Source: Pirellulaceae bacterium (GTDB lineage Bacteria; Planctomycetota; Planctomycetia; Pirellulales; Pirellulaceae). From it: a stretch of 64,000 bases of DNA. Within the stretch, counting starts at the first letter, position 1. Each line of letters starts with the position of its first letter. Both the position numbers and the translations under genes were made by a program. Below are positions 7,789 to 14,606 of the stretch, in pieces. The DNA lies in assembly GCA_019636375.1 (NCBI GenBank), contig JAHBXS010000003.1:496001-560000 (forward strand), given 5' to 3'. The notes below the pieces were generated by a model. The model ran no database searches and was not told where the DNA came from. It saw only the letters and a program-made list of their open reading frames with translations.

Positions 7789-8043
7789 AGAAATAACCCA
7801 AATTTTTAGGTTTGACAAAGCACTAAGAATCTCCCGCCTCATTGGCAACCGTTCATCAACCGATCAGTTGGAACACGACAATTCACTTTTCAACAGTTGA
7901 TTTTTGAATTATCTTGAACTATCAACAAAGTTGTCGCCAAAAATTGATGCCCTTTGAAATTGTCGCGACGATGAGGCAGAGATTTCAAAATTAATTTGCA
8001 ATAATAGCAAATGACGTAATCCTTGAACTCACGGGATGAAAAG

Positions 8044-8190
8044 TTGCCAACGGCCCAAAAATCAAAGCTCAACGTATCGCGTCTCGCCAAGACTGTCGGC
8101 GAAATTTTATTATTCGCAGTTGTGTTTTTCCTACTTCAGCGTTTGACCTTCAATCTGCGATTTCCACCCTATGAACGAACGACGATTTAG
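8044..8190 (+). pseudogene. N-terminal segment of the MASE1 sensor kinase, ended by in-frame TAG
   Basis: In the same frame as the kinase at 8215, the 48 codons from TTG 8044 encode a basic N-terminus and then a membrane helix (EILLFAVVFFLLQRL), followed by RFPPYERTTI and a TAG at 8188-8190. Directly after the TAG the frame goes on with VPGAVTFSVLLITHTRQWW. MASE1 domains carry a conserved W-P-P-x-G at this place, so the TAG stands where Trp (TGG) is expected; one G-to-A change explains it. The true start is uncertain: TTG 8044 has a weak GGGA upstream, and TTG 8023 is also in frame. Read together with 8215-10131 this would be one intact protein of about 695 residues. Confidence 0.7.
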
Positions 8191-8214
8191 GTTCCTGGTG
8201 CTGTAACGTTTAGT

Positions 8215-10131
8215 GTGCTGCTGATCACTCATACCCGCCAATGGTGGAAGTTTTATATCGGATTATGCCTAGGGGCTACCGCGGCGTACTATGAAGACGG
8301 TCAGATTTCTGCCCCGATCGCCTTGTTCGCCGCACAGTTTCATTTTGCCGCGGTTGTCATTGGCGTCTTGGGTATTCGGCGTTTTGTGGCGGACATACCG
8401 TTTGGTACGGTTGGAACCATGCTGGTGTTTGTGGCCTCTGCCGGTTTGCTGGTCCCGTTGGCAACCTCGGCACCCATCGAATTGACGCGCTGGGCGATGG
8501 GGGCAGATGATGTTGTCGCAAGTACCTTGAGATCGTTTCTTTGCGTATCGCTCGGTGTGGTACTAGCTTCGCCAGCGTTTACGACCTTGTTAGTAAGTGG
8601 TGCGGATTGGATTCGGTCGGGTTCCTGGCAGAGTAAATTAGAAGCGGCACTGCTGGCGATTTCCTTGGTGGTTGTGGGGCAGGTTGTGTTTAGCTCACCA
8701 GCAGGAACTGGAACTTTGCCGGCCTTGATTTATGCGCCGATCCCTATTTTGTTGTGGGCCGCATTGCGATTCGAGGTGGCGGGAGCGAGTTGGTCCTTGT
8801 TGGCCATCGCCTATCAATCGACTTGGAATGCCATCAATGATCGCGGACCGTTTGTCAGCGGTTCTACTGACGATTATGTGTTGCAGATGCAGTTGTTTTT
8901 GCTGGCGGTCTCGCTGCCAGTGTTGTTCATGGCGGCCGGGGTTCACGAGCGGCGACGTGCGTTCTCGTTGTTGGTCGGCGAAATCGAAGAACGTCGCCGT
9001 ATGGAGGAAAGATTTCGTTTGGTTGTCGAGTCAACACCCAACGCAATGTTGATGGTTGACCAAACGGGGGAAATCGTCCTTTCTAACAAACAGACGGAAC
9101 GCCTTTTTGGATTTCGCCAACAGGAACTGTTGGGCCGGGCTGTCGAAGAATTATTGCCCGAACGTTTTCGTCAAGATCATGTGATTTATCGTCAAGCATT
9201 TTTTGCCGACCCCAAAACCCGCTCGATAGGCTTAGGAACCGAGTTGTTTGCCAGACGTGCCGATGGTAGCGAGTTTCCAGTTGAGATCGGCCTCACGCCT
9301 ATCGACACCGGTAACGGCGCGATGGTGCTGGCAGCAATTGTGGATATCTCGGAACGGAAACGGGCTGAGGAGGCCCAGCAAGAATTAGTTCACGCCTCGC
9401 GGTTGGCCATGCTCAGTGAATTCACCGCCACGATCGCACACGAAATCAATCAACCGCTGGGAGCCATTTTAAGCAATGCCGACGCGGCTGAAATGTTACT
9501 GGAATCATCGGCGCCACCCTTGGATGAAGTCCGCCAAATTCTGGCCGACATTCGCGACGATGACTTGAGAGCCAGCAATGTCATCCGCAAATTGCGCGGA
9601 TTGCTGCGACGCGGCGAATTCGAGCGCGAGCCGATTGACATCAATTCGGTGGTCGCCGACGTGATGGTGATATTGCGTGCCGAGGCACAGCGGCGTGGAG
9701 TCGAACTGCGTTCCGAACTGGCTCCCGACCTGCCTGAATTGCTGGGTGACAAGATTCACTTGCAACAAGTCCTACTAAATCTGATCGTCAATGGCATGGA
9801 GGCGATGGTCGAAACGACGGGGCCGAAAAAGATTTCGATTGCCACTTATCAAAACGATGGACAGATTCAAGTCTCCGTGTCCGACACGGGGCCGGGAGTC
9901 TCTCCCGAACGCCTGCCGCGATTGTTTGATCGATTTTTTTCCACCAAGAAAGAAGGGATGGGGATGGGTCTAGCAATTTCGCGTTCATTGGTCGAGGAAC
10001 ACGGCGGACGAATTTGGGCCGAAAGCCCACCTAGCGAGGGTGCCACGTTTCGATTTAATTTACCCCTCGATTGCGGGCAAGCGGGCAGTCGCGATGCAGC
10101 CGCCATTGATTCTCAGGAGCAGAACCCATGA
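8215..10131 (+). CDS. MASE1-PAS sensor histidine kinase (N-terminus probably lost to TAG)
   Basis: From the GTG at 8215 the protein has 638 residues: about six or seven membrane helices of a MASE1-type sensor (1-245), a PAS domain (about 263-385, with LVVESTPNAMLMVD and the PAC-like ISERKRAEEAQ), a HisKA domain with phosphoacceptor His409 in IAHEINQPLG, and a HATPase domain with N-box LLNLIVNGMEAM, DTGPGVS and GMGMGLAISRSL. This is the FixL-like class that autophosphorylates and passes the phosphate to a FixJ-type regulator, here the next gene, which overlaps it by four bases (ATGA). The GTG lacks a ribosome binding site and removes the first helix, so the natural start probably lies upstream of the TAG at 8188. 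The signal sensed is unknown. Confidence 0.9.
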   Translation: MLLITHTRQWWKFYIGLCLGATAAYYEDGQISAPIALFAAQFHFAAVVIGVLGIRRFVADIPFGTVGTMLVFVASAGLLVPLATSAPIELTRWAMGADDVVASTLRSFLCVSLGVVLASPAFTTLLVSGADWIRSGSWQSKLEAALLAISLVVVGQVVFSSPAGTGTLPALIYAPIPILLWAALRFEVAGASWSLLAIAYQSTWNAINDRGPFVSGSTDDYVLQMQLFLLAVSLPVLFMAAGVHERRRAFSLLVGEIEERRRMEERFRLVVESTPNAMLMVDQTGEIVLSNKQTERLFGFRQQELLGRAVEELLPERFRQDHVIYRQAFFADPKTRSIGLGTELFARRADGSEFPVEIGLTPIDTGNGAMVLAAIVDISERKRAEEAQQELVHASRLAMLSEFTATIAHEINQPLGAILSNADAAEMLLESSAPPLDEVRQILADIRDDDLRASNVIRKLRGLLRRGEFEREPIDINSVVADVMVILRAEAQRRGVELRSELAPDLPELLGDKIHLQQVLLNLIVNGMEAMVETTGPKKISIATYQNDGQIQVSVSDTGPGVSPERLPRLFDRFFSTKKEGMGMGLAISRSLVEEHGGRIWAESPPSEGATFRFNLPLDCGQAGSRDAAAIDSQEQNP

Positions 10132-10748
10132 CCGAAATCGTCCCCATTATTCATATCATCGACGACGACGATTCGGTGCGCAAGGCGGTAAGTCGCCTGC
10201 TAAAAGCCGCCGGATATGCCGTGAAATCTTACGCCACCTCCGGTGAGTTCATGATGGCGGAAAACTTGGAGAGCCCAGGTTGTATCGTGCTCGATGTACG
10301 CATGCCGGGTCCCAGTGGACTTGAATTGCAATCTGCCCTCGCGCGACGAGGCAACGGTTTGCCAATCATTTTTCTCACCGGTCATGGCGACATTCCGATG
10401 AGCGTCCGAGCCATGAAGGCCGGAGCGGTTGATTTTCTGACCAAACCAGTCCAGCGACAAGAGTTATTGTCCGCCGTACAAAACGCACTAGACCGCCAAG
10501 CCAAACACCTATCCGAGCAAACTCGTAACCAGCACATACGAGAGTGTTACGCCACGCTCACCGAGCGAGAACGTGAAATCATGGCTCACGTTGTCGAGGG
10601 CAAGCTAAACAAACAAATCGCAGCAACCATGGGAATCGCCGAGCGCACCGTCAAAGCCCACCGCGCGCAAGTCATGTCAAAAATGCAAGTCGATTCCTTA
10701 GCCGACCTCGTCCGCACCGCCAGCGGGCTTGAACCCAGCGATGGATAG
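10128..10748 (+). CDS. FixJ-type response regulator with LuxR HTH
   Basis: The 206-residue protein has a receiver domain (about 6-120) with acidic cluster DDDD at 12-15, phosphoacceptor Asp56 in VLDVRMPG, Thr84 and Lys106 (FLTKP), then a LuxR-type helix-turn-helix (about 140-195, LTEREREIMAHVVEGKLNKQIA followed by ERTVKAHR). This is the FixJ/TodT (NarL/FixJ) class of transcription activators. Its start overlaps the kinase stop, so the two genes are translationally coupled and form a two-component pair. Likely targets are the sulfatase and secreted protein genes downstream, which is inference from position only. Confidence 0.95.
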   Translation: MTEIVPIIHIIDDDDSVRKAVSRLLKAAGYAVKSYATSGEFMMAENLESPGCIVLDVRMPGPSGLELQSALARRGNGLPIIFLTGHGDIPMSVRAMKAGAVDFLTKPVQRQELLSAVQNALDRQAKHLSEQTRNQHIRECYATLTEREREIMAHVVEGKLNKQIAATMGIAERTVKAHRAQVMSKMQVDSLADLVRTASGLEPSDG

Positions 10749-10939
10749 ATGCCCGCCGCCTCGTGAGTTGAATCAAGGAAAACAGCAAATTTACACTCGC
10801 AAGTGAACTCGTTTCTTGACAAGGTAATTTTCAAACCTTGAAGGGCTTGCTAGGCCAGTGCATTGGTGAATTAACCATAAACTTGCAGATGCCAAGACCG
10901 CGCCAAAATTGTCGCAGCATGTACACACCAACAACATTT

Positions 10940-11007
10940 GGAAACGCTGAGAGCGCAGAGGTCTTGGTATATCGTTTCCTCCGCGCTCTCAGCGCCTCTG
11001 CGTTTTA
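10940..11007. repeat. Intergenic inverted repeat, family B, copy 1
   Basis: The left arm reads AAACGCTGAGAGCGCAGAGG and the right arm CCTCCGCGCTCTCAGCG followed by CCTCTGCGTTTT, so the arms pair imperfectly. Both copies in this gap are preceded by TTTGG. Confidence 0.8.
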
Positions 11008-11120
11008 ATCAAGCTCTTCAAGTCCCTTCTGCCAGAACTAACCTTGTGCGAATTGCGGCAGAGCGGATCTTGGGAAGCCTGTGTGAGGGTCAGAACTAAA
11101 CCATCGAAAAAGCAGAATTT

Positions 11121-11196
11121 GGAAACGCTGAGACGCTGAGAGCGCAGAGATTTCGGTAAAAGGTTTCCTCTGCGTTCTCTGCGCCTCTGCGTTTTA
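11121..11196. repeat. Intergenic inverted repeat, family B, copy 2
   Basis: The element begins GGAAACGCTGAGACGCTGAG and ends GCGCCTCTGCGTTTT. Compared with copy 1 the left arm contains an extra ACGCTGAG unit. It starts 113 bases after the end of copy 1, in the same orientation. Confidence 0.8.
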
Positions 11197-11333
11197 ACCG
11201 TATTGCACCAAAGGGCAGTCTGATTTGCCCTCTGGGACAATTTTGGGCTGGAACGGCAAGCGGCATAATCTATCGGTCAACGATTCCGAACTGTTTCGGG
11301 GTCAGGGGAGTTGATGGCTGCGAAATTTGATTG

Positions 11334-11747
11334 ATGGAAATGCGACACGTGAATGTGGTGGTGGTCGAGGACGATGCTGGCATGAGACATGCGATCGTGC
11401 GGATTCTGTCGGTCGCTGGGATGGCTTCGACGTCGTTTCCCTCGGCTGAGGAATTGCTCGAATCGAACTCAATGGAGACCGCCGACGCATTGGTGGCCGA
11501 TATTCGGCTGCCTGGAATGTCTGGGCTGAATATGGTTCGAGAACTAGACAAACGAGGGATTTCTCGCCCAGTTATTTTCATCACTTCGCACGACGAACCG
11601 GTGGTTAGAAACGAGGCCCAGTCACTCGGTGCCAGAGACTTTCTGCCCAAACCGTTTTTAGGGACGACGCTGCTAGAATCTTTGCGACAGCTTGACAACA
11701 ATACAAAACAATCAAATCCGAGCGCGGGCTCGGAACCCAATTCGTAA
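11334..11747 (+). CDS. Single-domain response regulator (receiver only)
   Basis: The 137-residue protein is a lone receiver domain: VVEDDAGMRHAIVR, phosphoacceptor Asp in LVADIRLPGMSGL, a Thr in VIFITSHDE and Lys in FLPKPF. It resembles the receiver of the FixJ protein encoded just before it but has no DNA-binding domain. The ATG at 11334 is preceded by an in-frame TTG at 11331; either start gives the same domain. It lies 46 bases before the sulfatase gene, which has its own strong ribosome binding site, so co-transcription is likely. It may tune phosphate flow from the MASE1 kinase, either as a phosphate sink or as an alternative partner. Confidence 0.9.
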   Translation: MEMRHVNVVVVEDDAGMRHAIVRILSVAGMASTSFPSAEELLESNSMETADALVADIRLPGMSGLNMVRELDKRGISRPVIFITSHDEPVVRNEAQSLGARDFLPKPFLGTTLLESLRQLDNNTKQSNPSAGSEPNS

Positions 11748-11793
11748 TTGAATTTTCGAATGACAAAGTTCGCTTTTTGAAAGGAGCAATCAA

Positions 11794-13383
11794 ATGAAGT
11801 TGATGAAAGGGCGACGACTCTCGGTGGTCGCAATCCTCTGTGCAGGCTTCGTGGCTTGCTGGTCCGGCGCTGCGTCGGCGCAAGAAAAGAAGCCCAACAT
11901 TTTAGTGATTTGGGGGGATGATATCGGAACGTGGAACATCAGCCACAACAACCGTGGCATGATGGGCTATAAGACACCAAACATCGACCGAATCGCACGT
12001 GAGGGCGTTTCCTTTACAGATTATTATGGACAGCAGTCTTGTACTGCCGGTCGCGCGGCGTTCCTCAATGGAACTGTACCGGTTCGCACGGGGATGACCA
12101 AAGTCGGGATGCCTGGTGCGGAACAAGGCTGGCAAAAAACGGATGTAACCATCGCCACCGTTCTCAAGGCACAAGGATACGCCACAGGACAGTTCGGCAA
12201 AAACCATCAAGGCGACCGCGACGAGCACCTGCCTACGATGCACGGTTTTGATGAGTTCATCGGCAGTCTTTACCATCTCAACGCCGAAGAAGAACCGGAA
12301 AACCGCGACTACCCTCGAGATATGAAACTGGCTAACGGCAAGACGTTTCTGGAAACCTTTGGCCCTCGCGGTGTTCTCAAGTGCAAAGCCGACGGCCGAG
12401 GCGGTCAAACAATCGAGAACCTTGGACCGCTAACCAAGAAACGCATGGAAACGATCGACGAGGAAACTTTGGCCGCTGCCAAGGATTTCATCATTCGACA
12501 TCATGAGGCTGGAAAGCCGTTTTTCTGCTGGTGGAACGGCACCCGCATGCATTTCCGAACACACGTGAAAGAGGACCATATTGGAATTTCTGGTCAAGAC
12601 GAATACGGCGACGGCATGGTCGAGCATGACATGCACGTTGGCGAACTGTTGAAACTGATCGATGAACTAGGCATCTCTGATAACACGATTGTCCAGTACT
12701 CCACCGATAATGGCCCGCACTACAACACTTGGCCGGATGCCGGCACCACTCCCTTTCGCAGCGAGAAGAATTCGAACTGGGAAGGTGCATTCCGCGTCCC
12801 TTGCTTCGTAAAGTGGCCCGGCAAATATCAGGCTGGCGTAACCGTCAACGGCATTGTTTCTCATGAAGACTGGCTGCCTACTTTCGCAGCCGCTGCCGGT
12901 GCTCCAGGCATCAAAGAGCAACTCCATGCGGGTGTAATGCTCAATGGCCGCAGTTACAAAAACCACATCGATGGCTTCGACCTGAACGACTATCTTGCGG
13001 GCAAAACCGATCATTGCCCACGCGATGGGTTTATCTATGTCAACGATGGGGGCGAAGTCGTGGCGATTCGCGTTGGCGACTGGAAGGCCGTCTATCTGGA
13101 AAATCGGGCTCACCAGCTTGATGTATGGCGCGAACCGTTTGTTCATCTGCGTCTGCCGTTACTGTTCAACCTGCGACGTGATCCCTTTGAAAAAGCTCAG
13201 CACAATTCGAACACCTATCATGATTGGATGATCGATCGCGCATTTGTGCTCGTTCCGCTCCAAGGACTGGCCAGCAAGTTCTTGATGTCAATGAAAGACT
13301 ATCCGCCCAGCCAGACGCCAGGTGATTGGAGTCTGGATACGCTTGAAAGGCAGATCAAAAACATGACTCGCGGTGGTGACTAG
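11794..13383 (+). CDS. Arylsulfatase, secreted (CxAxR type)
   Basis: The 529-residue protein has a signal peptide (MKLMKGRRLSVVAILCAGF, ending in ASA-QE), metal-binding GDD at 41-43 and the sulfatase signature at Cys83 (CTAGRAAFLNG), the residue that must be turned into formylglycine. Ala instead of Pro at the third signature position is allowed in bacterial sulfatases but may favour a different maturase. Further motifs are QFGKNHQGD and STDNGPH. It hydrolyses sulfate esters, probably in the periplasm or outside the cell. An AAAGGAG site precedes the ATG by a good spacing, and a terminator hairpin follows at 13442-13472. It is the first of three sulfatases in the locus and differs clearly from the other two. 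Confidence 0.95.
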   Translation: MKLMKGRRLSVVAILCAGFVACWSGAASAQEKKPNILVIWGDDIGTWNISHNNRGMMGYKTPNIDRIAREGVSFTDYYGQQSCTAGRAAFLNGTVPVRTGMTKVGMPGAEQGWQKTDVTIATVLKAQGYATGQFGKNHQGDRDEHLPTMHGFDEFIGSLYHLNAEEEPENRDYPRDMKLANGKTFLETFGPRGVLKCKADGRGGQTIENLGPLTKKRMETIDEETLAAAKDFIIRHHEAGKPFFCWWNGTRMHFRTHVKEDHIGISGQDEYGDGMVEHDMHVGELLKLIDELGISDNTIVQYSTDNGPHYNTWPDAGTTPFRSEKNSNWEGAFRVPCFVKWPGKYQAGVTVNGIVSHEDWLPTFAAAAGAPGIKEQLHAGVMLNGRSYKNHIDGFDLNDYLAGKTDHCPRDGFIYVNDGGEVVAIRVGDWKAVYLENRAHQLDVWREPFVHLRLPLLFNLRRDPFEKAQHNSNTYHDWMIDRAFVLVPLQGLASKFLMSMKDYPPSQTPGDWSLDTLERQIKNMTRGGD

Positions 13384-13441
13384 GCCGTAGCATGAATCAA
13401 ATTTGATCGGCTGCTGGAGGTAAGTAGTCGTTCAAAAGCGA

Positions 13442-13484
13442 CACCGCGTCTTGCCACAAGCAGGGCGCGGTGGTTTTCTTTTTC
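13442..13484 (+). terminator. Rho-independent terminator after the sulfatase
   Basis: CACCGCG (13442-13448) pairs with CGCGGTG (13466-13472); the loop contains a smaller CTTG/CAAG hairpin, and a T-rich run GTTTTCTTTTT follows. Confidence 0.7.
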
Positions 13485-13487
13485 CGG

Positions 13488-13564
13488 GCAGCGGAAGTCG
13501 TCAAGAATTTCGTTCGTTTTCAACGATTTTTTTACACCACGAAAGTCTTGACGGCTTCCGCTAC
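13488..13564. repeat. Intergenic inverted repeat, family C, copy 2
   Basis: The arms at 13488-13512 (GCAGCGGAAGTCGTCAAG) and 13540-13564 (CTTGACGGCTTCCGCTAC) match the arms of the copy at 7722-7788. The loop is 27 bases, longer and different in sequence, so the arms rather than the loop are conserved. It follows directly on the terminator. Confidence 0.9.
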
Positions 13565-13610
13565 CACCAAGGGTCCTAAACTTTGATTTTAAAAAAGTGC
13601 CAAAACTAAA

Positions 13611-14606
13611 ATGAAACCACAAGCCATCAAATTCATCGTCTTGATTGCCGCTGTGAATATCTTATTTTCACCGCCCTATTCCCACGCTCAATTGCCGTCC
13701 TGGAACGATAGCCTGTCTAAGCGAGCCCTTGTGGCCTTTGTCGAGCGAGTCACCAATTTCGAAAGCCCAGATTTCGTTCCTCCCAAGGAGCGAATTGCCG
13801 TGTTTGACAATGACGGCGCATTGTGGTCTGAACAGCCGATGTACGTGCAATTGGCGTTTGCTCTGGATCGCGTCAAGGTTCTGGCCGAACAGAATCCTGA
13901 GTTGCGGGAGAAACAACCCTTCAAGGCCGCATTGGAGGGTGACCTCAAAACGTTGGCGGAATCGGGTGAGCGAGGACTGATGGAACTGATCATGGCCACT
14001 CATGCGGGAATGACTACCGAAGAATTCGCCGTGATCGTGAGCGATTGGTTGGCCACGGCTACGCATCCAAAATATCAGCGTCCCTATACCGAATGTGTGT
14101 ACCAGCCCATGCTGGAACTGCTCGCCTACCTGCGAGAAAATGATTTCAAGACTTTTATTGTCTCCGGTGGGGGCGTCGAGTTTATGCGGCCGTGGGTCGA
14201 GGAAGTCTATGGCATCCCGCCTGAACAAATCGTCGGCAGCAGTATCAAAGTCAAATACGAAGTTCGGGACGGGCAATCGGTCTTGATTCGATTGCCCGAA
14301 ATCGACTTGATTGACGACAAAGCGGGTAAGCCGGTCGGCATTCACAAATACATTGGCCGCCGCCCAATCATGGCGTTTGGCAATTCCGACGGCGATTACG
14401 AGATGTTGGAGTATGTTACCTCAGGTCTTGGTCCTCGCTTCGGCATGATCATTCATCACACCGACGCCGAACGCGAAAGTGCTTACGACCGCCAATCCCA
14501 CATCGGCCGCTTGGATAAAGCCCTTGATGATGCCGAGAAGTACGGATGGGTCATCGTCGATATGAAAAACGACTGGAACCGAATTTTTCCAGAGGCCGCC
14601 AGATGA
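13611..14606 (+). CDS. HAD-family phosphatase, secreted
   Basis: The 331-residue protein has a signal peptide (about residues 1-27, YSHA-Q) and a haloacid dehalogenase fold: motif I is FDNDGALW with Asp66 and Asp68, motif II FIVSGGGVEF, and motif III/IV AFGNSDGDYEM. In most members the residue after DNDG is Thr; here it is Ala70, a change in a residue that normally holds the phosphoryl group. The family relatives are phosphoserine-phosphatase-like proteins of unknown substrate. The gene follows a palindromic repeat and precedes the HlyD-type gene, all in the same direction. Confidence 0.85.
   Translation: MKPQAIKFIVLIAAVNILFSPPYSHAQLPSWNDSLSKRALVAFVERVTNFESPDFVPPKERIAVFDNDGALWSEQPMYVQLAFALDRVKVLAEQNPELREKQPFKAALEGDLKTLAESGERGLMELIMATHAGMTTEEFAVIVSDWLATATHPKYQRPYTECVYQPMLELLAYLRENDFKTFIVSGGGVEFMRPWVEEVYGIPPEQIVGSSIKVKYEVRDGQSVLIRLPEIDLIDDKAGKPVGIHKYIGRRPIMAFGNSDGDYEMLEYVTSGLGPRFGMIIHHTDAERESAYDRQSHIGRLDKALDDAEKYGWVIVDMKNDWNRIFPEAAR

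Follow-up and report, generated by a model that had tools for sequence, protein, structure and literature searches.

An in-frame TAG at the conserved tryptophan of a MASE1 sensor kinase in a Pirellulaceae genome: a probable recent nonsense mutation

Introduction

Besides its own orthologs, the closest described counterparts of the gene treated here are the Shigella signalling genes dgcM, dgcN and dgcQ, which carry nonsense mutations, and dgcE, which carries an IS insertion, all of them having a premature stop before enzymatic domains that are otherwise intact (PMC11327459). The protein products of these dgc genes have been measured (PMC11327459), whereas the kinase in our window (the whole analysed stretch of 64,000 nucleotides from a Pirellulaceae bacterium) is a prediction from the sequence. 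DgcE is a diguanylate cyclase whose MASE1 domain is required for activity and turnover (PMC6510439), and its lesion, at codon 366, comes after that domain (PMC11327459), whereas the lesion in the window lies inside MASE1. Among the titles and abstracts listed in our literature searches, there was no planctomycete precedent.

The interrupted reading frame

The original prediction was that the kinase frame extends upstream of GTG 8215 through a membrane helix and the block RFPPYERTTI, and is stopped only by a TAG. Coordinates and residues agree with this description: in the translation of the window, the TAG is the only stop between 8020 and GTG 8215, it is in frame nine codons upstream of this GTG, and the hydropathy of the first transmembrane helix (TM1) peaks at 8095 (Table 1). 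The stop is preceded by EILLFAVVFFLLQRLTFNLRFPPYERTTI and followed by VPGAVTFSVLLI.

Table 1. Features of the kinase locus in the window
Feature	Coordinates	Strand	Remarks
Kinase frame, upstream part; TM helix 1 and conserved block LQRLTFNLRFPPYERTTI	8020..8187	+	open downstream of TAA 8017; TTG 8023 or TTG 8044 may be the start
In-frame TAG at near-invariant MASE1 Trp codon	8188..8190	+	TGG in all orthologs
Remainder of MASE1-PAS-HisKA-HATPase_c sensor kinase, without decay; 638 aa from GTG 8215	8215..10131	+	
FixJ/NarL-type response regulator (Response_reg + GerE)	10128..10748	+	overlaps kinase end by 4 bases
Sulfatase, open frame	11764..13380	+	near orthologous kinase-regulator pair in relatives
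HAD-like hydrolase, open frame	13593..14603	+	also common to relatives' loci

The in-frame start codons upstream of the TAG are only TTG 8023, TTG 8044, GTG 8122 and TTG 8143, whereas the orthologs have an ATG located 51-74 codons upstream of the YERTT block. The nearest in-frame ATG of the window, at 8011, is cut off by the TAA at 8017; it is placed at -53 codons from the YERTT block, as compared to -51 for the upstream ATG of one ortholog (L095). This TAA may be a second lesion or may be there by chance, the N-terminal tails aligning too poorly to say; if it were a true lesion, the reading of the gene as a pseudogene would gain. The N-terminal tail of another ortholog (G002; L093, 3866-4000) contains a short in-frame tandem repeat, GHQRL, in four copies.

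Domains and family membership

Profile searches locate MASE1, PAS, HisKA and HATPase_c domains in the kinase after GTG 8215. The MASE1 profile, PF05231, gives 46.7 bits on this part, beginning at profile position 42, and 52.4 bits on the frame read through the TAG, beginning at position 4 and including one TAG, both matches being above the curated cut-off of 29.8 bits. Thus, the beginning of MASE1 is missing from the part that follows the GTG, because the match there starts only at position 42, and the upstream frame is not due to chance, since the longer match runs from position 4 through the stop. No other MASE1 gene above the cut-off was obtained in the profile search of the genome. HisKA (PF00512, 35.5 bits) and HATPase_c (PF02518, 98.8 bits) are both present, and the translation contains HEINQPL, NLIVNGMEAM, DTGPG and GMGMGLAIS. 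The Trp that MASE1 conserves at the start of its second membrane segment, which is a conserved residue and no formal criterion of the MASE1 kinase family, is absent in the window, with the TAG in its place.

The gene is orthologous to a sensor kinase of MASE1-PAS-HisKA-HATPase architecture whose partner is a FixJ-type regulator. The NCBIfam equivalog cut-offs are not reached for either FixL (259.6 of 850 bits) or FixJ (214.9 of 255 bits), and the kinase and its regulator are related to FixL/FixJ without being members. No decay was seen in PAS, HisKA, HATPase or the overlapping FixJ-type gene, as had been claimed, and there is no other lesion between the TAG and the point where the regulator ends.

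Orthologs and conservation of the tryptophan codon

In the alignment, each of the three full-length Pirellulaceae orthologs has TGG exactly at the TAG codon, within the sequence LQ[RK]LTFLLRF[PS]PYERTT[FL]W[VI]PGALTF. The named ortholog copies come from MAGs, namely Blastopirellula sp. (L010/L093), Planctomycetota REEB455 (L094) and Pirellulaceae M30B19 (L095). The REEB455 MAG also contains a further, partial copy (L096), with W at the same column. The identity to the window kinase is 50-63% over aligned kinase segments; by genome, the orthologs were found at 62% in G002, 52% in G113 and 57-64%, in two pieces, in G085. These orthologs have an uninterrupted frame, in contrast to that of the window. 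A wider comparison used MASE1-region proteins taken from genome contigs; of the 52 that cover the column, 51 keep the Trp and the remaining one has Y.

The aligned relatives therefore possess both the upstream helix and the Trp, rather than beginning at the GTG or lacking the residue, and the claim that an intact sensor and a truncated one differ here by a single base (TGG to TAG) is borne out. The motif had been given incorrectly: instead of W-P-P-x-G, the window has [TAG]-V-P-G-A at this site and the orthologs have W-[VI]-P-G-A, and the PP of RFPPYE is a separate block upstream of the Trp motif. An order-wide search, covering a sample of 397 genomes out of a larger group, gave the kinase only in the window's genome and in G085; its distribution is therefore sparse.

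Window and orthologs share 72-76% identity over the 29 codons that precede the TAG, a stretch in which two intact orthologs (L010 vs L049) share 76%. Moreover, the differences per codon amount to 0.66-0.76 at position 3 and to 0.07-0.17 at position 2. Since the identity stays at the ortholog level and the changes fall mostly at third positions, there has been no long relaxation upstream of the TAG, and the gene was intact until recently or is still intact in reality.

A probable recent mutation and its alternatives

One G-to-A transition turns TGG into a stop. We think that the TAG is a real and recent Trp-to-stop mutation in a known kind of sensor kinase, and we would give this reading a probability of roughly 0.6. 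The near-invariant Trp codon, located where the second MASE1 membrane segment begins, would have become TAG by this single G-to-A step, and translation coming from upstream would terminate after TM1. A kinase restarted at GTG 8215 would be devoid of TM1 and of the loop bearing the Trp and, because of these losses, it would probably be mis-inserted or blind to its signal. The outcome would be a young pseudogene, or else a gene for a truncated, deregulated or inactive kinase. The kinase should not be entered as a natural 638-residue protein starting at the GTG, but as an interrupted gene, or else the base should be checked. The implications reach little past annotation. Unless it is an assembly error, the stop is an ordinary nonsense change of one letter.

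The original prediction had left three explanations open, of which recent mutation and sequencing error both stay viable, and read-through has found no support. An error in the consensus or in the sequencing, or a minority strain allele that entered the assembly, the real gene having TGG and being intact, is possible but, in our opinion, less likely. The genome is an incomplete assembly of eight contigs, estimated to be 94.37% complete and 2.32% contaminated, and both the absence of any relaxation in the upstream codons and the intactness of everything downstream of the TAG are what an error would leave. The conservation before the TAG does not discriminate between a young mutation and an error in the sequence, and the lesion-free domains are also compatible with such an error or with a working truncated protein. 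Against an error, among 84 sulfatase, SBP_bac_10 and response-regulator matches in the genome, stops occur in one short sulfatase remnant only (57 codons, with one TGA and one TAG), so that stray stops are not frequent in this genome.

A functional truncated kinase produced by initiation or re-initiation at GTG 8215 seems to us quite improbable. The frame is intact for 638 codons from this GTG, and restart beside a premature stop has been proposed for the nonsense-bearing Shigella diguanylate cyclases dgcM and dgcQ (PMC11327459). However, the orthologs have Ile or Ala at the position of GTG 8215, which therefore is no ancestral start, no Shine-Dalgarno sequence is evident by eye upstream of it, and neither TM1 nor the conserved Trp region would be present in the product.

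Read-through of the TAG, whether programmed or driven by a suppressor, to give a full-length kinase is very unlikely. The frames are conserved on both sides of the stop and the following base is a G, with which stop codons terminate less efficiently in E. coli (PMC11126739). Nevertheless, neither a dedicated tRNA(CUA) or PylS nor a rarity of TAG as terminator, by which TAG recoding would be recognized, was found in the genome. The suppressor tRNA that had been suggested does not appear among the 52 Rfam tRNA matches of the genome, none of which has a CUA anticodon (ARAGORN called 51 of them, and the loop region of the other one contains no CTA), and the tRNA-Trp looks normal by eye, with a CCA anticodon and a 5-bp anticodon stem. 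A profile search of the genome, with a control that exceeded the cut-off in one genome, gave no PylS; RF1 is present, and TAG is a common terminator: about 503 kb contain 185 frames of more than 350 codons, of which 57 end in TAG. The RNA downstream of the TAG folds no better than its shuffles (z +1.39, 190 of 200 being at least as good). Useful read-through is thus unlikely. Besides, the stop is not conserved, the orthologs having TGG, full-length members of the three large families mentioned above contain no in-frame stop, and E. coli misreads TAG as Tyr, Gln or Lys and not mainly as Trp (PMC11126739). The survey of stops across the genome combined family searches with sampled stretches. A codon-usage scan for other split genes (about 503 kb) proved too weak for membrane genes; it scored the kinase site itself at 0.07 and -0.05, and is therefore no judge of this site. 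That the TAG might be a point of regulated read-through or restart, yielding two kinase forms, a full sensor and a MASE1-truncated one, is very improbable.

Genomic neighbourhood and further observations

In the relatives, a FixJ-type regulator adjoins the kinase, as in the window, and the regulator, the sulfatase and the HAD hydrolase are common to the window (8020-14603) and to the L093, L094 and L095 loci. The sulfatase at L094 is a C-terminal piece only, and at L093 it is on the other strand. The FixJ-type regulator may control the sulfatase, which is a kept neighbour in several Pirellulaceae and gives a testable hint at what the kinase-FixJ pair regulates.

Two other observations were made in the same genome. 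At G000:C1:777402-780110, two sulfatase pieces (profile positions 143-300 and 1-111) share a strand, with about 1.8 kb between them, and may represent a single gene interrupted by an insertion. Finally, L081 8819-9847 (G000:C5:299818-300846) holds 10 tRNA genes in tandem (Phe, Pro, Lys, Thr, Gly, Gln, His, Ser, Leu and Arg). Several of them have low Rfam scores, their anticodons duplicate those of other tRNA genes of the genome, and the array possibly belongs to a mobile element.
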